From Bordetella sp. FB-8 (GTDB lineage: Bacteria > Pseudomonadota > Gammaproteobacteria > Burkholderiales > Burkholderiaceae_B): DNA of 64,000 nucleotides. Positions 5,309 through 55,690 of the stretch are shown piece by piece (the stretch's first letter is position 1; each line of letters begins with the position of its first letter). Made by a program: the position numbers and the translations under genes. The notes beneath the pieces are model-generated. The model saw only the letters and a program-made list of their open reading frames with translations, was not told the DNA's origin and ran no database searches. Location of the stretch: the NCBI RefSeq assembly GCF_000382185.1, contig NZ_KB907784.1, positions 434,001 to 498,000 on the forward strand. Direction: 5' to 3'.

Positions 5309-7239
5309 ACGCGCCGCCCCCCCTCAAGCACACGCTCCCCGCCCGGGGAGAAGACGCGCGGCGCCAGGCAGGACACCTGTCCGACACGAGGCTGCGTCCG
5401 CGCCATCTGGTCTCGATCTTCATCGTCCTGCTGGCGCTGGCCCCGCTGTTCCTGCCGCCTTTCTACGTCACCCTGCTCGACTACATCGGGCTGTCCGCGC
5501 TGACCGCCGTCGGCCTGGTTCTGCTCACCGGCGTCGGCGGCCTGACCTCCTTTGGCCAGGCGGCTTTCGTCGGGCTGGGCGCCTACACCAGCGCCGTACT
5601 CTGCCTGAACGCGTCCCGCCTGCCCCATGCCCTGGCCTGGTTGGGCACGCCCTGGATCGGACTGCTGGCCGGACTGCTGATCACGCTGGCCGTGGCCTAT
5701 GTGCTGGGCGCCATCACCCTCAAGCTTTCCGGGCATTTCCTGCCACTGGGCACGCTGGCCTGGGGCCTGAGCCTGTTCTATCTCTTTAGCACGGTCGACG
5801 GGCTGGGCGGCTACACCGGCCTGAGCGACATTCCGCCGATTTCGGTCTTCGGCCTGCAGCTCATGCACGGCAACCAGATCTACTACCTGATCTGGGTCTT
5901 CCTGTTGCTGGGCGTCTGGACCACGCAGAACCTGCTGGACTCGCGCATGGGCCGCGCCATCCGCGCCCTGCGCGGCGGCCGCGTCATGGCCGAGTCCATG
6001 GGCGTGGATACGGCCCAGGCGCGCATGATCATCTTCATCATCGCCGCGCTGCAGGCCTGCGCGGCGGGTTGGCTGTACGCGCATTTCCAGCGCTTCATCA
6101 ACCCCAACCCCTTCAGCGTCGAACAGGGCATCGAGTACCTGTTCATGGCGGTGATCGGCGGCATAGGCTACGTATGGGGCGCGGTGATCGGCGCCGGCAT
6201 TTTCACCGTGCTGAACCAGTGGCTGCAGGACCTGCTGCCGCGCCTCTTGGGCCATACCGGCAATTTCGAGACCATCGTCTTCGGCTTCGGCATGGTGCTG
6301 CTGCTGCACCGCGCGCGCGTCGGCCTGTGGCCCACCCTGTCGCGGCGCGTACCGGTGCGCGCCGCGCAGCGCCGCATCGACGCCACGGCCGAGCCGCTGC
6401 CCCGCCAGCCCATGCCGGCGCGCGGCGAGGTGGTGCTGCAGGCGCGCGAGATCACCCGCCGCTTCGGCGGCCTGGTGGCCAACGACCAGATGTCGCTGGA
6501 CATCCGCGCCGGCGAGATCCTGGCGCTGATCGGCCCGAACGGCGCCGGCAAGAGCACCATGTTCAATCAGATCTCCGGCGTGGATACGCCCACCTCGGGC
6601 CGCGTCACGCTGCGCGGCCGGGACGTCACCGGCCTCGGCGCGCGCGCCGTCGCCAGGCTGGGCCTGTCGCGCACCTTCCAGCACGTGCGCCTGCTGGGCC
6701 GCATGAGCGTGCTGGAAAACGTGGCCATCGGCGCGCACCTGCGCGGCACCAGCGGCATCCTGCGCTCGGCCTGGCGCCGCGACCGCGCCGAGGAAGCGCG
6801 CCTGCTGGCCGAGGCGGCCCGCCAGATCGAACGCGTGGGCCTGGGCCCGCACATGCACACGCCCGCCGGCGCGCTGGCCCTGGGACAGCAACGCATTCTG
6901 GAAGTCGCGCGCGCCCTGGCCGCCGACCCCTTCGTGCTGCTGCTCGACGAACCCGCCGCCGGCCTGCGCCACCAGGAAAAGCAGGAACTGGCCCAGCTGC
7001 TGTCGCGCCTGGGTTCCGAAGGCATGGCCGTGCTGCTGGTCGAACACGATATGGACTTCGTCATGAATCTGGTCGACCGCGTCGTGGTGATGGACTTCGG
7101 CCAGAAGATCGCCGAAGGCCTGCCGGCCGACATCCAGACCAACCCGGCCGTGCTCGAGGCCTATCTGGGCGGGATCGACGATGACGCGTCCGCCGAGCCG
7201 CCTCGAGGACGCATTCCTCCTCGGGGGGACGGCGCGTAG
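5305..7239 (+). CDS. LivM-LivG fusion: ABC permease plus ATPase
   Basis: One 644-residue polypeptide joins a LivM-type permease (residues ~33-345, hydrophobic segments) to a LivG-type ATPase (~372-625). The ATPase shows Walker A GPNGAGKST near residue 409, Walker B LLLLDEP near 545, an H-loop (LVEHDMDF), and the ABC signature as LALGQQR instead of LSYGQQR. The start is the ATG overlapping the livH stop. Both protein ends look repeat-derived: the N-terminal ~30 residues and the C-terminal tail (EPPRGRIPPRGDGA) coincide with GC-rich repeat sequence. Fused LivMG proteins occur in other beta- and alphaproteobacteria and remain functional in principle. Confidence 0.92.
   Translation: MNAPPPLKHTLPARGEDARRQAGHLSDTRLRPRHLVSIFIVLLALAPLFLPPFYVTLLDYIGLSALTAVGLVLLTGVGGLTSFGQAAFVGLGAYTSAVLCLNASRLPHALAWLGTPWIGLLAGLLITLAVAYVLGAITLKLSGHFLPLGTLAWGLSLFYLFSTVDGLGGYTGLSDIPPISVFGLQLMHGNQIYYLIWVFLLLGVWTTQNLLDSRMGRAIRALRGGRVMAESMGVDTAQARMIIFIIAALQACAAGWLYAHFQRFINPNPFSVEQGIEYLFMAVIGGIGYVWGAVIGAGIFTVLNQWLQDLLPRLLGHTGNFETIVFGFGMVLLLHRARVGLWPTLSRRVPVRAAQRRIDATAEPLPRQPMPARGEVVLQAREITRRFGGLVANDQMSLDIRAGEILALIGPNGAGKSTMFNQISGVDTPTSGRVTLRGRDVTGLGARAVARLGLSRTFQHVRLLGRMSVLENVAIGAHLRGTSGILRSAWRRDRAEEARLLAEAARQIERVGLGPHMHTPAGALALGQQRILEVARALAADPFVLLLDEPAAGLRHQEKQELAQLLSRLGSEGMAVLLVEHDMDFVMNLVDRVVVMDFGQKIAEGLPADIQTNPAVLEAYLGGIDDDASAEPPRGRIPPRGDGA
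5313..5366 (+). repeat. Possible dispersed-repeat sequence inside the LivMG N-terminus
   Basis: Sequence of the type CCCCCCCTCAAG...CTCCCCGCCCGGGGAG...GCGCCAGGC encodes the poorly conserved N-terminal tail before the first membrane segment. The resemblance to the other repeats in the window is partial. Confidence 0.35.
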
Positions 7240-41199: not shown

Positions 41200-41215
41200 C
41201 CCGTCTGCGCAATAA

Positions 41216-41237
41216 GCCGCCCGCAATCGCGGGCGGC
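41216..41237. terminator. Strong GC hairpin after purU
   Basis: A perfect 9-bp stem GCCGCCCGC / GCGGGCGGC with the AATC tetraloop, 17 bases after the purU stop. No T-run follows, so intrinsic termination is uncertain. It marks the end of the purU operon. Confidence 0.55.
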
Positions 41238-41239
41238 CC

Positions 41240-41542
41240 GAAGCCTCCCTCAGTTGCCCTAGTTGCGCAGCCGTTCAATTGACGCATGAGAAATCCGTTG
41301 ATGGAGACGCTGTTTTCCACCCGCCACATGAACGTCGAGCGTTGCATGAACGCCATGCGCGTACTGTGCAGCACGACGATGTCGTATCGGCGCGCTTCGT
41401 TCTTGAGCACGGCTCCCTCACCGAACCACCCGCCCGCCGGTACGCCTGTGAAGGTCGCACTGCGCTTTTGGCGCAAGACGGTGCCGACCGTGATGAGTCC
41501 CGCTCACAAGGCCGGTATCGGCCAGAAAGAGACACTCGACAT
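41240..41542 (-). pseudogene. Broken Crp/Fnr-family regulator
   Basis: On the minus strand a frame from an ATG at 41542 reads through a TGA (codon 13) into TFTGVPAGGWFGEGAVLK, EARRYDIVVL and FMRQL-like (FLMRQLNG) motifs. These are the cyclic-nucleotide-binding domain of Crp/Fnr regulators common in Alcaligenaceae. The HTH domain is missing at the purU side. The internal stop and loss of both ends show a decayed gene. It marks the left border of the lower-GC accessory segment. Confidence 0.65.
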
Positions 41543-41594
41543 GACCGCCTGAATTGCTAACAATTCAATCATCGAACAAGCATAGGGACCACCC

Positions 41595-42440
41595 ATGACA
41601 GCGATGAAGTCGATTCAGGAGATATTCCAAGGGGAATTCGTCGACGCCTCGTCGGCGTTAGTGCAGAAGATGCACCGCAACGAGCACAATATGACCGCGC
41701 TGCAGCGCAATTACACGGAACATTGGCCGGCGCTGACGGAACCGCATGATCTCGTCGTTGTGGCGATCGAAGAGGTATCGGGCAACAAGAAGCGCCGCGA
41801 AATCTGGTGTGGTTTTTTCGACGACGTGCAGTGGACGGGAATGCGCGAGAAGGGGCCGGCCTATCGTTTCCTTGTCGACCGATTTCAGCTTGTTGGCGTT
41901 CATGATCGGGACCATGTTTCGGACAGCGAGTTTTACGGGAACGGGGGCGGTGGTGGTTCACGTGTGAAGGTTTGCAAGGCAAGTCACAAGAAGGGATCGA
42001 CCGCGCGCAAGCGCACCGCGATACCCACGCCGGAAGGCATAATGGTGCAGCGCCTTATCTGGGTGCGGAAGAACCACAGAAAGTTCCGTGACCCTGTGCA
42101 GCAACACTGGGAAGGTAAATGCGCCGTTGCGGATCACAATTGTGACGGCCACCCCGGCCTGTTGATTGCTTCGCACATCTACCCGTGGGCGCGGTCCGAG
42201 CCGAAGGAAAAGACTGACGTTGACAATGGCCTGCTGCTGTCATCCCCTCTCGACCGACTCTTCGACCAGGGCCTGATATCGTTCGCTCGCGACGGCATGA
42301 TGCTCATAAGCCCCGATCTGGCGCCGAGCACGAGGCATGTGTTCGGACTTAAGGCTGGTATGAAGATCGCGGACCCAAGGAAGATCACAAGGGGGATGCG
42401 GAAATATTTGGCTAAGCACCGCAAACTTCATGGGTTCTAG
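41595..42440 (+). CDS. HNH endonuclease family protein
   Basis: A 281-residue protein. The C-terminal part carries an HNH_2-type nuclease core: ASHIYPWA (H194), NGLLLSSPLDRLFDQGLISF (N211, D220-D224). It lacks the usual second His of CTHH but keeps the LDRLFD pattern seen in restriction-associated HNH proteins. The N-terminal ~150 residues have no family I know and could recognise DNA. Codon and base composition are lower in GC than in the flanking chromosome. It lies next to other nuclease-like genes and may be a solitary restriction or defence endonuclease. Confidence 0.78.
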   Translation: MTAMKSIQEIFQGEFVDASSALVQKMHRNEHNMTALQRNYTEHWPALTEPHDLVVVAIEEVSGNKKRREIWCGFFDDVQWTGMREKGPAYRFLVDRFQLVGVHDRDHVSDSEFYGNGGGGGSRVKVCKASHKKGSTARKRTAIPTPEGIMVQRLIWVRKNHRKFRDPVQQHWEGKCAVADHNCDGHPGLLIASHIYPWARSEPKEKTDVDNGLLLSSPLDRLFDQGLISFARDGMMLISPDLAPSTRHVFGLKAGMKIADPRKITRGMRKYLAKHRKLHGF

Positions 42441-42623
42441 AGACAGGCTGCTGGTCGCCTCTTACATTAGACGCCATTCACGCCCATTGTCGCGTAGCGT
42501 CATGGGGCGCTATTCGCGGCCGTCTGCTAATGACCATGCTGAATGTTGATTCAGGGTCGAAAATGGTCCTTTGCGAAAGACCGCCAAATCCGGACATTCG
42601 AAATGTGTCTGCCCGGGTTTCAC

Positions 42624-43577
42624 TCAGGGCTCGTTATTGTCTTCTTCGTAGCCGGCATAGTCGTCGTTCGGAGCATAATATTCGGCAGCATCATAGACTT
42701 GGGTCTTCTTGTAGCGGTCGCCGAGGCCGACAACCGTCAGGCGAGAAAGGCCGAGAATCTTCAGGCCGCAAGCGATGCATTCGAACCGGTTGGGCAGATA
42801 TTCCTGCGTTTCGGTGATCTCGCCGTCGCTTAGCCTTTGGACTGGCGCTGAGACTGGCCCGCCGACAACCAGAGCTTGCGAAGCGCAGGCGGGGCAGTAC
42901 ACACGGTGGCCGGCTTGTCGAGTTGCCCAGACCGAAGCCTGCGCGCTCAGCTTCAAACGCTCCTGTTCTCCCTTGGCTAGCCAGACTTTCTTATGAGCTT
43001 CGACCTCGCCTTTCACCGCCTTGGCGCTTTCGTCGGCTGCGGCGTCAATGAGTTCCCTAGCGACTTTCGCCTCATCCTCACCGAAAAAATCCTCAAGTGT
43101 CGTCCCAATAGAGGAGAGAAGAATCTCGCACGTCTGGTAGAAGCGCGGCTGCCAAACCGAGGCCTTGATTCCGTCGAAGGCGAGTTCGCCTGTATGTAGC
43201 TCGGCGTTGCGTCGGCCGGTGTGGAGGATGCCGAAGCCCTCATGTTCCTTCGTGAAATCCGGCAAGATCGCCGTGAGGCGTTTGAAGACCTCACTGACCG
43301 CAATGGACTTCGGAGCGAACTTCTCCTCGGTAGGGGTAAAACCTAGTGCATGGTAGAGACTGGTCCAATTCTTATCGGTCTCGGCCAGCAGCGCGGGACT
43401 GACATTAGCGAGCGCTGCTCGCGCTAGGAATTCGAGGGAAAAACCCGACCAAAGGGCATATTCCCAATCATCACTATCTAGGGCGCTCATATGCTGCACA
43501 TAGCGCTGAGCCTTCAGATAAAGAGCTTCCGGGTCCCAGGACAGTGGGGTTGCCTTAGGTGTGACGGTCCTCTTCAA
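42624..43577 (-). CDS. HEPN-like protein with C-terminal zinc ribbon
   Basis: A 317-residue protein, mostly alpha-helical in residues 15-210. R123-NAEL-H128 inside GRRNAELHTGE matches the R-x4-6-H motif of HEPN ribonucleases. The C-terminus has a four-Cys zinc ribbon (C228-x2-C231 and C267-x2-C270) and an acidic Asp/Glu/Tyr tail. The start is a TTG overlapping the stop of the upstream dioxygenase gene (TTGA), with GGAGA 7 bases before it, so the two are translationally coupled. HEPN proteins are usually RNA-targeting effectors in toxin-antitoxin, abortive infection and restriction systems. No ATPase or MNT partner is present. Assignment to HEPN rests on the motif and helical context only. Confidence 0.6.
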   Translation of the reverse strand: MKRTVTPKATPLSWDPEALYLKAQRYVQHMSALDSDDWEYALWSGFSLEFLARAALANVSPALLAETDKNWTSLYHALGFTPTEEKFAPKSIAVSEVFKRLTAILPDFTKEHEGFGILHTGRRNAELHTGELAFDGIKASVWQPRFYQTCEILLSSIGTTLEDFFGEDEAKVARELIDAAADESAKAVKGEVEAHKKVWLAKGEQERLKLSAQASVWATRQAGHRVYCPACASQALVVGGPVSAPVQRLSDGEITETQEYLPNRFECIACGLKILGLSRLTVVGLGDRYKKTQVYDAAEYYAPNDDYAGYEEDNNEP

Positions 43578-44230
43578 CGCAGATTCTCCAAATAAATCCT
43601 CTGAATCTTCCGATCCACACGCTCGGCGGGAATCGGCGAGCGTGCGTGCAACATGCGCCAGTTGTCGATCAAGAGTGTGTCGCTAGCTTGTGCGAGGGCG
43701 ATCGATAAGGGTTGGCACTTGGGGAACTGCTCCCTGATGCGTTGGCTGGCGATGTCCCCAATCCTGCTTGCTGGCTTGAGGAACACGTCATCCCATCGGA
43801 AGCAATAACCGTCATCGGTGGGTTCGCACAAGCGCAACAGTGTGATCCCCCCGATCCGAGGTCGGCGCGGCTTGAAGATGGCGCGCGTCAGAATGTCCAG
43901 CGTCACGGCGTCGAAGATGGCTTGTCCATCTAGCAACAGCGTTGAGACATCCGCATATCCGATCACGCATCGTAGTAGAAGATAACGAGGTGGTAGGCGC
44001 CAATGCGCGAGATCAGTGTGAAACGGAAAGCGATCGAGGCCGTAGATGCCGCTATAGGTATTGGGTGTCGCGGTGGCACGAGGGACCAAATCTTGGACAA
44101 GTCTACCCTCCCACTGCGTCAGTGGTTGGCCGAGCGCGTTGGCGAGCGCAACTATATCCATCTTCGGACAATACTCTTGGACAAAGGCATATCCATGCCT
44201 CGTAACCTCTTGCTTGAGGGAGCGTGTCAT
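43574..44230 (-). CDS. TauD/clavaminate-synthase-like 2-oxoglutarate/Fe(II) dioxygenase
   Basis: From the ATG at 44230 (AGG upstream) the protein has 218 residues. A longer frame to a TTG at 44281 has no Shine-Dalgarno. The iron facial triad is visible: H71-x-D73 in PFHTDLAHW and H195 in NWRMLHARSP, followed by Arg residues (R207/R211) suited to bind 2-oxoglutarate. It hydroxylates or demethylates an unknown target. Its stop overlaps the start of the HEPN/zinc-ribbon gene by 4 bases, so the two products are made together. The gene lies in a low-GC accessory segment with nucleases, unlike metabolic TauD genes. Confidence 0.75.
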   Translation of the reverse strand: MTRSLKQEVTRHGYAFVQEYCPKMDIVALANALGQPLTQWEGRLVQDLVPRATATPNTYSGIYGLDRFPFHTDLAHWRLPPRYLLLRCVIGYADVSTLLLDGQAIFDAVTLDILTRAIFKPRRPRIGGITLLRLCEPTDDGYCFRWDDVFLKPASRIGDIASQRIREQFPKCQPLSIALAQASDTLLIDNWRMLHARSPIPAERVDRKIQRIYLENLR

Positions 44231-44281
44231 TTGCCTGGTTACACCGATCTTGGATGTTTCCGATGCTGCCGAGTTCGGCAA

Positions 44282-44526
44282 GCTTGCACGGCTTTCCGAA
44301 TAGCGTGGCGAAATCCCGAGTCAAAACTCTGGTGAGCATACGCCGCCGAATGATTGCGTTGGGTCGGTTACGTCCGGCTGCGTCGGACAGTAGTCGGCCA
44401 GGAGCAACTGGTGACGGCTAGTAAAAGCGGGCGCTCAACATTGAGTTAAGCCGCGCCGCTCACCGAGAGGTGGCCTCGTTTGTTTGGACAGTATTGTGAG
44501 ATTTATAAGTGGAACGCCCGAGGCAG
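44282..44526. other. Non-coding leader and IS3-end region
   Basis: No gene is visible between the dioxygenase gene and the IS3 remnant. The segment TGGCCTCGTTTGTTTGGACAGT near 44471-44492 lies outside the IS3 transposase stop and may be the terminal repeat of that lost element. Promoter elements for the minus-strand pair should lie around 44240-44340. Confidence 0.35.
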
Positions 44527-44599
44527 TCATGCTGCCGATTTAATCGCTGGCAGCGTGGCGAAGTATGCCTCATCCGGAGTCTGATCGGCCAGACTGGAG
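44527..44599 (-). pseudogene. IS3-family transposase OrfB, C-terminal remnant
   Basis: On the minus strand the last 23 codons read SSLADQTPDEAYFATLP then AIKSAA and stop, the typical C-terminus of IS3-family transposases. The upstream part is missing because the IS256-type element starts exactly here. The rest of the IS3 element is not found on the other side. Confidence 0.8.
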
Positions 44600-45942
44600 G
44601 GGTCTATCAGTAATTTCGTGTTCAGGGCATAACATGTCTCCAAGGAGAGGATATGCCCCGCAAGCCGAAGACCCCGTTGGCAGAACTGCCGACCCTACCT
44701 GCCGAATTGCTTGAGTTGCTCGGCGACGGTCCGAAGACGGCCGCCGAGATCAACGCCACAGTCATGGCGCTGAAGAAGGCGCTGATTGAAAGGGCGCTGT
44801 CAGGCGAGATGAGTCACCACCTGGGCTACAAGCCTGGCATGGCCAAACCGGAATCGGTGACTAACCAGCGCAATGGCAAAGGCGCCAAGACGGTGCTGAC
44901 CGAAGACGGCCCGCTGCGCATCGAGGTGCCGCGAGACCGTGACGGCAGCTTTGATCCTATTCTGATCGCTAAGCACGAACGGCGGTTTACCGGGTTCGAT
45001 GACAAGATTATCGCCATGTATGCCCGAGGCATGACGGTGCGAGAAATCCAGGGTTTTTTGCTCGAGCAATACGGCACGGAAGTTTCGCCGGACTTCATCA
45101 GCACGGTCACCGATGAAGTCATGGTCGAAGTCACGGCGTGGCAGGCCCGGCCGCTCGAACCGATGTATCCGGTCGTGTTCTTCGACGCTCTGCGCGTGAA
45201 GATCCGTGAAGATGCCGTGGTGCGCAACAAAGCGGTGTACCTGGCGCTAGGCGTTCTGGCCGACGGCACCCGGGACATTCTGGGTCTATGGATTGAAAAT
45301 ACCGAAGGTGCCAGGTTCTGGATGAAGGTCTTCAACGATCTGAAAACCCGAGGCGTTAACGATATCCTGATTGCCGTCACTGACGGCCTGAAGGGGCTGC
45401 CCGATGCGCTGGCGGCGGTGTTCCCGGCAACCACCCCGCAGACCTGCATCGTTCACCTGATCCGTAACAGCCTGGCTTACGCTAACTGGAAAGAGCGCAA
45501 GGCGCTGGCGGCGGCGATCAGGCCCATCTACACCGCGCCCAGCGCCGAGGCGGCCGCCGCCGAGCTGGATGCATTTGAAGCGGGTCCATGGGGCCAGAAA
45601 TTCCCGACGGTCACCGCAGCCTGGCGTAATGCCTGGGATCGGGTGATTCCCTTCTTTGCCTTCCCACCGGCTATCAGAAAGACGATCTACACGACCAATG
45701 CAATCGAGAGCGTCAACGCGCAACTGCGCAAGATCATCAAGACCCGCGGTCACTTCCCCAGTGATGAGGCCGCCACCAAACTCATCTGGCTGGCCTTGCG
45801 CAACATCACGGCCAAATGGAGCCGGTCGGCCCACGATTGGAAGCAAGCCATGAACCAGTTTGCTATCCTCTTCGCTGACCGCTTCGTTCAGATCGCCGCG
45901 TGATTACTCCCCCGCTCTGAACACGAAATTTATGACAGGCCC
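44600..45942 (+). mobile_element. IS256-family insertion sequence
   Basis: A 1343-bp element bounded by 29-bp imperfect inverted repeats. The left end is 44600-44628 (GGGTCTATCAGTAATTTCGT...) and the right end 45914-45942 (read inverted, GGGCCTGTCATAAATTTCGT...), 24 of 29 matching. It contains one transposase gene. The flanks (GACTGGAG left, ACCTCTCG right) do not form a target duplication, so one side has probably been deleted or rearranged after insertion. Confidence 0.9.
44653..45903 (+). CDS. IS256-family (mutator-type) transposase
   Basis: A 416-residue transposase with intact DDE positions: D in VFFDALRVKIRED, D in VTDGLKGLPDAL, and E in TTNAIESVNAQLRK, plus the family signature C-x2-H (CIVHLIRNS). 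AAGGAGA lies upstream of the ATG. Full length and both terminal repeats are present, so it may be active. Confidence 0.95.
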   Translation: MPRKPKTPLAELPTLPAELLELLGDGPKTAAEINATVMALKKALIERALSGEMSHHLGYKPGMAKPESVTNQRNGKGAKTVLTEDGPLRIEVPRDRDGSFDPILIAKHERRFTGFDDKIIAMYARGMTVREIQGFLLEQYGTEVSPDFISTVTDEVMVEVTAWQARPLEPMYPVVFFDALRVKIREDAVVRNKAVYLALGVLADGTRDILGLWIENTEGARFWMKVFNDLKTRGVNDILIAVTDGLKGLPDALAAVFPATTPQTCIVHLIRNSLAYANWKERKALAAAIRPIYTAPSAEAAAAELDAFEAGPWGQKFPTVTAAWRNAWDRVIPFFAFPPAIRKTIYTTNAIESVNAQLRKIIKTRGHFPSDEAATKLIWLALRNITAKWSRSAHDWKQAMNQFAILFADRFVQIAA

Positions 45943-46171
45943 ACCTCTCGCGACGACGAGCTTCGAGTCGGTCTCATCGGGCGCAGTGCGGCCAGGAACC
46001 GCCGTTCGGCGCACTCGGAATCGGACGCTTGTGCGACCGCTTTTGAGAACTGGCCGCTCGCATTTGACTGTGGGTGACACGCGCAGTCCCGCAGAGGTGT
46101 GCCTTAGCCAAGCGCTTTTGATCAATTCCGCGTCCGATCAATCTTGTGGACAACCGGACGCTGAACTTGCT

Positions 46172-47473
46172 TCAGACCGGGTCGTCAACCACCGGTCCAA
46201 GCGCGCTTCTTAGACGTGCATAGACTGTTTGAGCCTTCATCGGCAACTCGGACTCACTCAGATTGGCTACTTTGCCAAGCATTCTGAACGAGGCCGATCT
46301 TCGCCCCTTCTTGAGTTCGGGGAATTCCTCCTCAAGTGCGACCTGGACTTTTGCCCTGTAACCATCTTCAAGGTTGAGCGGTCGATACTGAATGCCTACC
46401 GCATAATTGTCTGGCCCGTGAACCGATTCACGCATTTCCCATGCGACAACGCAGACAGGCCATGACGCTGCTTCAGCACCCATAACTGGGTTCCATGCTT
46501 CATCAAATAACCAAAAGATCCGCTTCCCATAGTCTGTCAAGAGCTTGCGATTTGGAAGCTTGGCCTTGATGCGCCTTTCGATAAACGAAAGCTTTGCCTT
46601 TGAACCAAGGCGTTCAATCAACTCCGGATAGTGATGGGCGAAAATCCACTTTTCACCCAGGTCGCCGTCCAATGTCGTCGGGGTGAGCGCACTGACGTCA
46701 AGAGTTACTGCTTTCTCGAGATCTTCAATGACCGTCCTATATTCCATCGCAACGTCCGCGAGAACATCGTCAAGTTCCTTCTGCTCCGGCGGAACGTAGT
46801 CAGTTTGCTTCTGGCAGTAAGCAATCACGAGCGCAGCAGATTGGTTTCCTCGCTTGATCTGGAGCTCCGCGCGATCAGCGCCAGCCTCGAGCCATTGGTA
46901 ATCGAGAAATGCCCACCGGTTACGTGGTGCAGATCGATTATCGTCCTCGTCCCGAGCTCCGCCATAATTCCGATCCAAGACAATATGCGCTGTCTTGTAA
47001 CCTTTGAATGCCGGCCGGGCACGTAACACTGCCACCTCGTTGTAGTAGGTCTCAAGCTGCTCCGGCCCGAGCTTGGCGCCGTGCTTGTTCTCAATCACAA
47101 CGAGGAGTTGATTCACAGGGTCGATCATCAGCAGGTCCAACCGGGCCTTCTTGCTCGGGAGCACATACTCTCGAATTGCGATCATCGAGTGGAAGCCGGT
47201 TCGGGCAATCCTGCCCGGCGTCCAAACAGCAAAGAATTCTTTGTTGCAAAGGACGTTTTCATACGAATTTCCATAAGCAGCGGTCAGGAAATCTTTCAAC
47301 ATTCCGTCACCTTGACTGTGTCCTTCGCGAGGATCAAACAACCATTTCAGTATTTCAGAATGTTGGTTTTCATTTGGTTCGATGATGTTGAAAATATCGT
47401 TCGACCGCTTTAATCCCTCCATGGCCTTTCGCAGCCTGGGATCTGCTACAAACTCGTGAAATGCCTCGTCCAT
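46172..47473 (-). CDS. PD-(D/E)XK nuclease-superfamily protein
   Basis: A 433-residue protein. Residues 30-145 carry a PD-(D/E)XK core: E40 in NENQHSEILKWLFDP, D113 in RLDLLMID, E128-x-K130 in VVIENKHGAKLG, and a Q-x-ETYY helix. This order (helix-E, D, ExK, Q) is that of PDDEXK_4-like proteins often found in defence islands. The remaining ~290 residues are of unknown function. The composition is less GC-rich than the chromosome. It stands alone on the minus strand, facing the IS256 element. It probably cleaves DNA in a defence context, but no partner is obvious. Confidence 0.78.
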   Translation of the reverse strand: MDEAFHEFVADPRLRKAMEGLKRSNDIFNIIEPNENQHSEILKWLFDPREGHSQGDGMLKDFLTAAYGNSYENVLCNKEFFAVWTPGRIARTGFHSMIAIREYVLPSKKARLDLLMIDPVNQLLVVIENKHGAKLGPEQLETYYNEVAVLRARPAFKGYKTAHIVLDRNYGGARDEDDNRSAPRNRWAFLDYQWLEAGADRAELQIKRGNQSAALVIAYCQKQTDYVPPEQKELDDVLADVAMEYRTVIEDLEKAVTLDVSALTPTTLDGDLGEKWIFAHHYPELIERLGSKAKLSFIERRIKAKLPNRKLLTDYGKRIFWLFDEAWNPVMGAEAASWPVCVVAWEMRESVHGPDNYAVGIQYRPLNLEDGYRAKVQVALEEEFPELKKGRRSASFRMLGKVANLSESELPMKAQTVYARLRSALGPVVDDPV

Positions 47474-47781
47474 CAGAATTTTCCGTCGATCATTGGTTTT
47501 TTTTGCAACTCAACTATTGTATCGGTCGAAGCTACGAAATCATTGTGCACTGCTGGAAGCGGCCATCTGATTTGCGTAGTGCGAGCGGCCGTTGTGGGTA
47601 GATACCCGCCGATCATCGGCACCTATATTCGATTCAAGACAGGCCTTCCGATTCACTTTTCAAAACGCAAGCCCGCGCATCAAGCCCAGCCTGCCGCATA
47701 CACGACGCAAACCGGTGCTGGTAGCATTGAATGCCGACTCGGACATTGCACCATCCGACGGCACCTCAAAAGCGGACCGAC
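47474..47781. other. AT-rich to GC-rich transition without a supportable gene
   Basis: The left half holds the promoter region of the PD-(D/E)XK gene (T/A-rich, with a run of eight T near 47500). The right half shifts to chromosome-like base composition before the DOPA-dioxygenase-family gene, so the right border of the low-GC segment lies here. A short frame at 47592-47795 has no family features. Confidence 0.45.
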
Positions 47782-48135
47782 ATGACCATTCTTGATACCC
47801 ACCGCATCGAAAGCTGGCATGCCCATGTCTATTTCGATGCGGCAAGCCGCGATGCTGCCTGGGCGTTCCGGCAGGAGATCGATCGGCATTTCGGCGCCTG
47901 CGTGCAAATCGGACGGTTTCATGAGCGTCCGGTCGGCCCTCATACACAGTGGTCGTATCAGATTGCGTGTGCCACGGACCATTTCTCCGCACTGATTGGC
48001 TGGTTGACGCTGAACCACGGCGCCCTGGACATCTTCGTGCACCCCAACACGGGTGACACCCTGCGCGATCATCGCGATTGCGCGGTGTGGATCGGCCGCT
48101 CCTACGACCTGGTTCTGTCCGCGTTAAGCAAATGA
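47782..48135 (+). CDS. DOPA 4,5-dioxygenase family protein
   Basis: A 117-residue single-domain protein of the DOPA dioxygenase family. The His pattern is present: SWHAHVYFD at the start, GRFHERPVGPHTQW in the middle and LDIFVHPNTGD near the end, which bind the iron. Family members cleave catechols extradiol or have unknown roles in bacteria. The stop overlaps the start of arfB (ATGA), so the two are co-translated, although no functional link is known. Confidence 0.87.
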   Translation: MTILDTHRIESWHAHVYFDAASRDAAWAFRQEIDRHFGACVQIGRFHERPVGPHTQWSYQIACATDHFSALIGWLTLNHGALDIFVHPNTGDTLRDHRDCAVWIGRSYDLVLSALSK

Positions 48136-48536
48136 CCGCCCGCTACACCGTCGCCCCTCACGAAGTCGAACTTGTCGCCGTACGCGCGCAGGGTGCGGGC
48201 GGGCAGAATGTGAACAAAGTGTCGAGCGCCATCCATTTGCGCTTTGACGTGCGCGCATCCGCACTGCCGCAAGTGCTGAAGATGCGCCTGCTGGCGCTGC
48301 ACGACCGGCGCGTGACGCGCGATGGCGTGATCATCATCAAGGCGCAGGAATACCGCACCCAGGAACAGAATCGGGCCGCGGCGATGGCGCGTCTCGAAGA
48401 ATTGATCGCAAGCGTTCGCACAACCCGCAAAGTCCGTGTGGCAACGCGCCCGACCCGTTCGTCGCAGCGGCGTCGCCTCGATAACAAGGCGCAGCGCAGC
48501 GAGGTAAAAACGGGACGAGGGCGCGTGTCCGAATAG
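48132..48536 (+). CDS. arfB: Alternative ribosome-rescue factor ArfB (YaeJ)
   Basis: A 134-residue peptidyl-tRNA hydrolase of the release-factor family with the catalytic GGQ (G23-G24-Q25 in QGAGGQNVNKVSSA). A Lys/Arg-rich C-terminal tail (~100-134) enters the mRNA channel of stalled ribosomes. ArfB rescues non-stop ribosomes as a backup for tmRNA. The start overlaps the stop of the upstream gene. The IS66 element inserted 15 bases after its stop. Confidence 0.93.
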   Translation: MTARYTVAPHEVELVAVRAQGAGGQNVNKVSSAIHLRFDVRASALPQVLKMRLLALHDRRVTRDGVIIIKAQEYRTQEQNRAAAMARLEELIASVRTTRKVRVATRPTRSSQRRRLDNKAQRSEVKTGRGRVSE

Positions 48537-51534: not shown

Positions 51535-52590
51535 ATGCGCTACGCCGACTTCGATCAACGCCTCGCCTGCCTTGGCGCCCTGCCCGTCCATCGCGGCCGG
51601 GTGGTGCGCGTCTGGCTGGACGGTCAAGCACTCGACAGCGGCACGCGGCGGCGGCTGTCCGAGCACTTTCTGCCGCGGGCGCTGCGCGAGGCCGTGCCCG
51701 CCCTGACGATGGAACTGGACGGCCTGGCCCGCATCCGCTCCGAACACGCCGGCAGCGACGGTTCACGGCTGCTCGTCGAACTGGCCGACGGACAGATGGT
51801 GGAAAGCGTGCTGCTGCCGCGCGACGGGCTCTGCGTCTCTACCCAGGTCGGCTGCGCGGTCGGCTGCCGTTTCTGCATGACCGGCAAGAGCGGCCTGATC
51901 CGCCAGGTCACGAGCATGGAGATCCTCGCTCAGGTCGTACTGGCACGGCGCCTGCGCGCGGTGAGGAAAGTCGTTTTCATGGGTATGGGCGAACCGGCGC
52001 ACAACCTGGACAACGTGCTCGAAGCCATAGACCTGCTCGGCACCGAAGGCAATATCGGCCACAAGAATCTGGTGTTCTCCACCGTGGGCGACTTGCGCGT
52101 GTTCGACGCCCTGCCGCGCCAGCGCGTCAAGCCCGCGCTGGCGCTGTCGCTGCACACGACCAAGGCCGCGCTGCGCGAACACCTGTTGCCGCGCGCGCCG
52201 AAAATCGCGCCGGAGGAACTGATCGCGCTCGGCGAAAAATACGCCCGCGATACTGACTATCCAATTCAATACCAGTGGACGCTGCTCAAGGGCGTCAACG
52301 ACGGCGACGACGAGCTCGACGCCGTCGTGCGCTTGCTCAAGGGCAAGTATGGCGTGCTCAACATGATTCCCTTCAATAGTCTGGAAGGGGACGACTACCA
52401 GCGTCCCGATTCCGAGCGCATCCGTGAAATCGTCCGCAAGCTGCACAGTCGCGGTGTGCTGACGAAAGTGAGAAACAGCGCCGGCCAGGACGTGGAGGGC
52501 GGCTGCGGCCAACTGCGCGCCCGCGCTGTCGCAGCTGCGCAGGGGGTCGAACTTCGCCGCAGGCCCCTGGCAAAGCCGGAAGTCGCTTAA
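51535..52590 (+). CDS. RlmN/Cfr-family radical SAM RNA methyltransferase
   Basis: A 351-residue protein. The [4Fe-4S] motif is C107-AVG-C111-RF-C114. The methyl-carrying or resolving Cys pair corresponds to C100 (in LCVSTQVGC) and the C-terminal Cys in EGGCGQL. SAM-binding MGMGEPAHNLDNV is present. RlmN methylates A2503 of 23S rRNA and A37 of some tRNAs. Its N-terminal domain is shorter than that of canonical RlmN and lacks its usual motifs, so this is probably a second paralogue with an unknown target base. A deleted copy of its 5' part lies at 54869. Confidence 0.85.
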   Translation: MRYADFDQRLACLGALPVHRGRVVRVWLDGQALDSGTRRRLSEHFLPRALREAVPALTMELDGLARIRSEHAGSDGSRLLVELADGQMVESVLLPRDGLCVSTQVGCAVGCRFCMTGKSGLIRQVTSMEILAQVVLARRLRAVRKVVFMGMGEPAHNLDNVLEAIDLLGTEGNIGHKNLVFSTVGDLRVFDALPRQRVKPALALSLHTTKAALREHLLPRAPKIAPEELIALGEKYARDTDYPIQYQWTLLKGVNDGDDELDAVVRLLKGKYGVLNMIPFNSLEGDDYQRPDSERIREIVRKLHSRGVLTKVRNSAGQDVEGGCGQLRARAVAAAQGVELRRRPLAKPEVA

Positions 52591-54868: not shown

Positions 54869-54991
54869 ATGCGCTACGCCGACTTCGATCAACGCCTCGC
54901 CTGCCTTGGCGCCCTGACCGGCAAGAGCGGCCTGGTCCGCCGGGTCACGAGCATGGAGATCCTCGCTCAGGTCGTACTGGCACGGCGCCTC
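54869..54991 (+). pseudogene. Partial, internally deleted copy of the rlmN-like gene
   Basis: It starts with the same codons as the gene at 51535 (MRYADFDQRLACLGAL), then jumps to the segment after the second cluster Cys (TGKSGLVRRVTSMEILAQVV), and ends at ARRL. Compared with the intact gene, bases equivalent to 51583-51879 (99 codons) are missing, and the match stops near 54991. About 25 bases of leader (CAGTAAAA...) are also shared. The fragment cannot be active. Confidence 0.88.
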
Positions 54992-55174
54992 CTGCATGGG
55001 GTTCAGCAAACCGACCGCTTCGTCGCGACGCCTTTGCGCAAGTCGTATGACAGCATCAGGATCGAAGATGCGAATCCGCTCGGCGAACACCGCGGCGCGC
55101 GCCGCATAGACATCGGCAAGGTCGGGATAAGCGGCCACGCATTGCAGACTCCCTCTGCCTGCATCCCGCGACGC

Positions 55175-55690
55175 TTATGCCTCAATGACGTATCGGCGGT
55201 CTGTGACTGGCGTCTCACCAATGCGGCTGGATTCAAGGCCCGCGAATTTCCAGCCGTTGCTTTCGTAAAATCGGATCGCTTTGTGATTTCCTTCCAAAGC
55301 GTAGAGATGCACTTTCGTTTCGCCCTGCTCTCGCGCCCATGCGCGCACAGCCTCAATCATGAGCCTTCCCAGTCCGCGCCCCTGGAAAGCATCCATGACG
55401 TGAAGGCTGCTGAGCAGCGCGCCATACGCCGGATTGGCGGCTTTTTCGGCACTTACGAACCCGGCGGGCTTTTGATCGATCTCGGCGATGAGAACAAGAC
55501 CGCGCTCTTTCGGCGGCCGGGACAGGAGCGCGTCCCAGTGCGTTCTGTGGTCCAGAGAAACCCGCTCGCCCAGGTATTGGGCGGGCAAGAGCGCGCGATA
55601 AGCGTCGCGCCAACTCGACGTGTGCAAGGCGGCGACGACGGCGCTGTCGTCTGCCGAGGCAGCACGTAGCAAAACCTCTGGAACTTTCAT
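55175..55690 (-). CDS. GNAT family N-acetyltransferase
   Basis: A 171-residue GNAT. The start at 55690 (MKVPEVLLRAAS) is chosen because the acetyltransferase fold starts there. The acetyl-CoA loop is FQGRGLGRLMI (R/Q-x2-G-x-G/A), followed by a C-terminal NHKAIRFYESNGWK motif, typical of RimI-like small-molecule or protein acetyltransferases. The substrate is unknown. It is divergent from mntH. Confidence 0.88.
   Translation of the reverse strand: MKVPEVLLRAASADDSAVVAALHTSSWRDAYRALLPAQYLGERVSLDHRTHWDALLSRPPKERGLVLIAEIDQKPAGFVSAEKAANPAYGALLSSLHVMDAFQGRGLGRLMIEAVRAWAREQGETKVHLYALEGNHKAIRFYESNGWKFAGLESSRIGETPVTDRRYVIEA

Follow-up and report, generated by a model that had tools for sequence, protein, structure and literature searches.

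A rare, mobile gene pair in Bordetella sp. FB-8 joins a TauD-family oxygenase to a predicted HEPN zinc-ribbon protein with a candidate asparagine target

In the stretch of the Bordetella sp. FB-8 genome analyzed here (64,000 nucleotides, C1:434001-498000 of a 4.08 Mb genome; hereafter the window), two overlapping minus-strand genes encode a TauD-family Fe(II)/2-oxoglutarate (2OG) oxygenase and a protein with a predicted HEPN domain and a zinc ribbon. The two genes are near-obligate partners, and the pair is rare, horizontally mobile, and located among defence genes. We propose, at a probability of about 0.4, that the pair forms a mobile module of toxin or defence type: by hydroxylating N315, a C-terminal tail asparagine of the HEPN protein, the predicted oxygenase would restrain a predicted HEPN ribonuclease (RNase). 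We propose control through this residue because the tail asparagine is nearly confined to HEPN proteins whose gene accompanies an oxygenase gene.

The two genes are overlapping, co-inherited partners

The gene for the HEPN protein (317 residues) occupies 42624..43577 on the minus strand. The longest open reading frame (ORF) for the oxygenase, present as the original prediction gave it, begins at a TTG and spans 43574-44281 on the minus strand (235 residues). The true gene is probably 43574..44230, beginning at the ATG at 44230, because its 218 residues fit the length of its homologues (217-218 residues in 84/120 among the matches listed). The two genes share four bases, TTGA (43574..43577, minus strand), in which the oxygenase stop codon overlaps the TTG start of the HEPN gene. 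This overlap is recurrent: an in-frame start lies exactly at -4 in 48/57 pairs and is TTG in 26 of those 48, with the caveat that the script picks the start codon nearest -4 and is biased towards that value. The pair has a guanine-plus-cytosine (GC) content of 0.566, compared to 0.669 at positions 1-40000 of the window. The original prediction, of two coupled minus-strand genes sharing TTGA in lower-GC DNA, is therefore upheld in both respects.

Protein databases hold 977 homologues of the HEPN protein and 676 of the oxygenase, of which 120 were listed for each. The oxygenase gene lies directly upstream of the HEPN gene in 47/55 loci, the other eight being contig edges or truncated or fused remnants. 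On plasmids, 23/23 oxygenase-positive records are also HEPN-positive among the matches listed, and the HEPN gene adjoins in 6/6 viral contigs that carry the oxygenase. Across 398 Pseudomonadota genomes, the HEPN gene adjoins 7/8 strong oxygenase matches; at the eighth, the contig ends. The conserved adjacency that had been named as a check on the original prediction is thus present in other genomes, and on the genome counts we reject a generic metabolic TauD enzyme lying beside HEPN by chance. Five weaker oxygenase matches (E 1e-18 to 3e-11, 335-365 residues) had no HEPN gene within the short stretch examined. Protein distances of the oxygenase and its HEPN partner correlate with r 0.95 over 57 pairs. 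The converse association is incomplete: HEPN-ribbon relatives without the oxygenase occur on actinobacterial plasmids (19 in our set). We conclude that the two genes are overlapping, co-inherited, near-obligate partners.

A C-terminal asparagine accompanies the oxygenase gene

Residues 306-317 of the HEPN protein (42627..42662, minus strand) form a conserved acidic tail (..GYEEDNNEP) that is predicted to be disordered, with a predicted local distance difference test score (pLDDT) below 50. Within it lies N315 (42633..42635, minus strand), the proposed oxygenase substrate. To place this residue, as for all residue counts in the HEPN protein, we compared 57 oxygenase-paired members with the oxygenase-less (unpaired) relatives, which comprise 15 records out of 35, besides L064-L066, and number 19 members in all. 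The aligned column is Asn in 55/57 paired members and 0/19 unpaired members, and an Asn is found among the last five residues of 56/57 paired proteins versus 1/19 unpaired. The paired tails as a rule close with Asn-[Glu/Asp]: they end in NNE (37), GND (13), or one each of HNE, SND, FND, GNE, FNE, and DNM, some with zero to two extra residues. Between -30 and -7 in the same proteins, 1.4% of residues are Asn. The unpaired tails are still acidic, and L101 (PFHNF) is the only one of the 19 with an Asn in its last five residues. A Streptomyces member that has the oxygenase (L063) ends in YGND, which Streptomyces members without the oxygenase do not. The tail Asn is encoded by AAC in 42 cases and AAT in 14, and the adjacent codons vary synonymously; selection therefore acts on the protein. 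A Fisher test of tail against oxygenase (p 1.5e-13) was set aside, because L009 (oxygenase present, below the script cut) and L042 (contig edge) entered it as unpaired members and because the tree holds a single split.

The oxygenase retains the residues expected for catalysis

The oxygenase passes the gathering score of the Pfam TauD family (PF02668, E 8.9e-10, 39.3 bits against a cut-off of 27), and its model (pLDDT 91.8) has a predicted jelly-roll, TauD-type fold. We counted residues over 61 non-redundant members, the window copy included. The first two metal ligands of the facial triad lie in H71-T72-D73 (44012..44020, minus strand), with H71 in 61/61 members and D or E at position 73 in 61/61 (58 D, 3 E). 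The third, H195, lies within DNWRMLHAR (43646..43648, minus strand; 60/61). R211 (43598..43600, minus strand; 60/61) is a candidate 2OG-binding Arg, a role that we assume from the TauD family. The triad and this distal Arg are whole in 60/61 members, the sole exception being the deletion chimera L045:9893-10636. This remnant of an internal deletion is a single ORF of 248 residues that passes from the front part of the oxygenase into the HEPN zinc ribbon and tail.

Foldseek placed an asparagine oxygenase (2og7, E 1.8e-10) first for the oxygenase model, followed by KDO1, clavaminate synthase, and VioC-type enzymes; by VIA-align, the scores were TmpA 18.9, BBOX1 18.7, KDO1 18.1, clavaminate synthase 17.9, and AsnO 17.6. 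As modeled, the fold is closest to small-molecule hydroxylases of amino-acid and carnitine type, asparagine oxygenase among them.

The partner is a predicted HEPN protein with a zinc ribbon

The model of the HEPN protein (pLDDT 87.9) contains the four-helix bundle of the HEPN superfamily, and the closest solved structures are HEPN domains, HepT toxins included. A survey of the superfamily defines the HEPN motif as Rx4-6H with a polar residue after R (PMC3710099). R123-N-A-E-L-H128 (43194..43211, minus strand) has this form, with N124 following R123 and three further residues leading to H128. R, N, and H are present in 56/57, 57/57, and 57/57 paired members and in 19/19, 18/19, and 19/19 unpaired ones. 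The two halves of the zinc ribbon, C228-P-A-C231 (42885..42896, minus strand) and C267-I-A-C270 (42768..42779, minus strand), are each conserved in 57/57 paired and 19/19 unpaired members. By sequence, the protein matched no family in Pfam or PADLOC even at E 10 and only noise in NCBIfam (E 0.18). A sequence search of solved structures gave nothing significant, so the assignment to HEPN rests on fold and motif. Both catalytic signatures had been part of the original prediction, which named an HTD...H triad in one protein and an R-x4-H motif with a Cys4 ribbon in the other; conservation across members and the Pfam TauD match agree with it, and the structure prediction that it called for to find a HEPN core returned HEPN chains as the nearest structures.

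The pair is rare, mobile, and surrounded by defence genes

The HEPN gene occurs in 1/61 genomes (its own and 60 relatives) and in 0/14 genus-mates, and the pair is similarly patchy among Pseudomonadota (7/398 genomes). It is found on plasmids, conjugative ones among them, on predicted viral contigs, and in islands beside defence genes. The HEPN protein had no match in 50,697 phage genome records, yet predicted viral contigs carry the pair; two such copies (L070 and L071) adjoin phage-type genes, as read from translations with no family search beyond PADLOC. The HEPN tree crosses taxonomy, with a metagenome-assembled genome labeled Planctomycetota inside a betaproteobacterial group, and near-identical HEPN copies occur in Brucella, Paracoccus, and Roseinatronobacter. 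Records bearing the pair are labeled Pseudomonadota, Planctomycetota, and Actinomycetota.

The original prediction had also placed the pair in defence-type surroundings, among HNH and PD-(D/E)XK proteins, and both family matches in the window and scans of neighbor ORFs elsewhere support this. The scans covered 165 hand-picked neighbor ORFs (163 of 260 listed, plus two from annotation, in L052 and L055). At 1e-10, PADLOC models numbered 238 in 100 and 126 in 65 neighbor ORFs versus 7 in a control set of 79 ORFs drawn from five regions of the window's own genome, counts that are inflated by many models per protein. In Ketogulonicigenium, Gabija lies directly upstream of the pair (GajA E 1.5e-286, GajB 1.7e-266). 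Other neighbors include PDC-M01A/B and a type IV-A DinG-like helicase, and neighbor ORFs match the Ppl, MkoA (which we take to be Mokosh), and RT-protease models. We conclude that the module is rare, horizontally mobile, and situated among defence genes.

In the window, the low-GC island around the pair also holds, outside the pair itself, an HNH_2 endonuclease gene on the plus strand (41595..42440; Pfam PF13391, E 1.9e-11; PADLOC HNH, E 5.7e-18), a Mutator-family transposase gene (44653-45903), and a minus-strand gene for a PDDEXK_4 protein of the candidate defence family PDC-S26 (46172..47473; Pfam PF14281, E 8.7e-30; PADLOC PDC-S26, E 7.8e-20). The HNH_2 endonuclease shows a weak NCBIfam likeness to phosphorothioate-DNA restriction proteins (E 1.3e-8, below cut-off). 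In the relative with the closest flank (a contig of 5190 bases in G009), similarity to the window ends at 41502, just before the HNH gene. No RNA family matched within 41200-48200. Further along, an RlmN-like ORF (51535-52590, named from its translation alone) is followed 2.3 kb later by an ORF (54869-55669) with the same start and a short shared inner stretch that then diverges, which has the look of a partial duplication.

Other genes accompany the pair or its relatives in particular groups. In seven loci the pair is followed by a HATPase_c_3 (Hsp90/MORC-like ATPase) gene with 91-95% identity between loci, possibly a clade-specific third gene (L002:11014-13050, L004:11016-13052, L005:10979-13060, L007:11015-13051, L008:11015-13033, L010:11016-13010, and L012:11015-13051); the L002 copy had no PADLOC match at 1e-20. 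On Agrobacterium, Paracoccus, and Pseudomonas plasmids, the pair has beside it a gene for a TrlF-family AAA-like ATPase (L050:2334-7478, L055:2316-7442, and L051:5295-9979), and in L050 and L055 a GIY-YIG gene lies just downstream. Among oxygenase-less HEPN-ribbon genes on actinobacterial plasmids, some lie no more than a few kb from AbiEii/AbiGii-type nucleotidyltransferase genes (L104:4486-5160 and L112:5312-5754), and one Streptomyces plasmid has two different such genes about 3.4 kb apart (L065:1262-2383 and 5824-6888).

Discussion

The original prediction left the oxygenase substrate among RNA, a tRNA, and the HEPN protein. Our evidence favors the last, through a C-terminal Asn tail that it had not mentioned. 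In the mechanism we propose, the oxygenase would be translated first and could act on the HEPN protein during its synthesis. Hydroxylation of N315 would neutralize the RNase in a manner like that of type VII systems, although site and sign are both inferred, and hydroxylation may instead activate the HEPN protein. Unmodified protein would cut RNA, possibly tRNA, and arrest the cell, and its zinc ribbon could help RNA binding. Infection or plasmid loss that stops oxygenase synthesis, or a fall in oxygen, iron, or 2OG, could then leave unmodified, freed RNase. Somewhat more tentatively, we suggest that the module places an RNase toxin under the influence of oxygen, iron, and 2OG. It would then be, in records labeled with three phyla, a prokaryotic equivalent of HIF asparaginyl hydroxylation that serves phage or plasmid conflict.

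Several observations weigh against this proposal. Paired and unpaired members form two clades separated by one split (support 100/98), and the association of tail and oxygenase may therefore be one evolutionary event, a single contrast with lasting conservation on one of its sides and not a series of independent changes; L052 and L063 are long branches whose placement in the tree is unsure. Paired member L052 has no tail Asn (GYQDE), the sole such case in 57, and paired member L054 has Q for R123. The ranking of asparagine oxygenase among the structural neighbors is non-specific. Finally, in one record (L068) the oxygenase frame is disrupted and the HEPN gene is intact. Two other records (L067 and Rhizobium sp. 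007) have a broken HEPN gene and a kept oxygenase, and with so few cases (2 versus 1) gene decay gives no direction of neutralization.

Alternatively, the tail could be a docking peptide, with the oxygenase bound there blocking or modifying the HEPN protein elsewhere, for example near R123-H128, or serving mainly as a binding antitoxin. Such docking would suit an acidic, disordered tail and the correlated distances of the two proteins, as well as two residues between the catalytic R and H that distinguish paired members: E126 is present in 55/57 and L127 in 57/57 of these, compared to 0/19 and 1/19 unpaired. We nonetheless consider it unlikely: a pure binder would not need the full catalytic set that is whole in 60/61 members, and selection for a single Asn within an acidic stretch would suit a substrate better than generic docking.

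A further alternative, which we judge a little less probable again, is that the oxygenase modifies RNA, either tRNA or the HEPN target site, and thereby shields or marks it for the HEPN nuclease, as in restriction-modification but at the RNA level. Modify-and-cut pairs are a familiar logic in DNA restriction, the oxygenase has an arginine-rich stretch (R122 in 51/61 members, R123 in 41/61), and the zinc ribbon of its partner could bind RNA. Modification of RNA would, however, leave the oxygenase-linked Asn tail unexplained, and the closest folds are amino-acid and carnitine-type hydroxylases. Those nearest solved relatives work on free amino acids or small molecules, which would fit an oxygenase that makes or removes a small molecule (such as a hydroxylated amino acid) signaling to the HEPN protein; this we regard as improbable, because the 10 Pfam families shared by at least two of 100 neighbor ORFs include no biosynthetic one and because the tight, overlapping two-gene unit and the matching tail suggest direct contact of the two proteins. 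We hold it equally improbable that the pair has a plain accessory or regulatory function and plays no part as a toxin or in defence. L068 and the lack of any phenotype known to us might speak for this, and the rare and patchy distribution on conjugative plasmids and viral contigs and in defence-gene surroundings speaks against it.

Hydroxylation of the tail Asn by the partner oxygenase is a sharp proposal, with one residue (N315), one mass shift (+16 Da), and one partner enzyme. If correct, it would add oxygenase chemistry to the ways in which partner enzymes control HEPN toxins, tie the switching of an RNase to oxygen, iron, and 2OG, and assign a protein as substrate to TauD-fold enzymes within a conflict system. 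Should the proposed substrate prove mistaken, the pair would still be a good candidate for defence assays, being near-obligate, mobile, and unannotated, with 977 and 676 homologues and no PADLOC model.

Comparison with known systems

The original prediction knew of no named system that pairs these families, and this holds for the open literature searched and for PADLOC. PADLOC 2.0.0 gave no defence family for either protein at E up to 10. We found no description of an oxygenase-HEPN pair in searches covering 5.39 million open papers, and a word search of the main text of the HEPN superfamily survey found none of "dioxygenase", "oxygenase", or "2-oxoglutarate" (PMC3710099). According to that survey, proteins with HEPN and a zinc ribbon are known (DUF4145-like and other groups), and DUF4145-like ones occur in operons with restriction genes (PMC3710099). 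The window protein differs from these groups in matching no Pfam HEPN family. The oxygenase in turn differs from AsnO, KDO1, VioC, and clavaminate synthase in its length (218 residues versus about 320) and in its HEPN-gene partner.

Two other systems resemble the proposed chemistry. FIH, a 2OG oxygenase, switches its target protein by hydroxylating an Asn in a C-terminal segment; it is, however, a JmjC-type eukaryotic enzyme with a transcription-factor target and has no known kinship to the window oxygenase beyond the superfamily fold. In Hha/TomB, an oxygen-dependent type VII toxin-antitoxin system, the antitoxin acts through oxidation of the toxin, giving an oxygen-dependent control like the one we propose, but TomB is not known as a 2OG oxygenase, nor Hha as a HEPN RNase.

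The closest parallel is the type VII HEPN/MNT system (HepT/MntA), which shares with the window pair a two-gene module, an Rx4H HEPN RNase (predicted here), and an enzyme partner, and HepT is among the nearest folds. In that system, MntA AMPylates a HepT tyrosine, and this modified RX4HXY tyrosine and MntA are conserved together (PMC7641770); N315 and the oxygenase show the same pattern here. Here, however, the partner is a TauD-fold Fe(II)/2OG oxygenase and not an MNT nucleotidyltransferase (GSX10DXD), and the HEPN motif reads RNAELHTG, so that the position two residues after H128 is not a Tyr. The candidate site lies in the C-terminal tail and is an Asn, not a Tyr beside the active site, and a zinc ribbon is added. 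We rate the pair as one that would work like a HEPN toxin with a modifying partner, in which the partner chemistry and the proposed site appear to be new.
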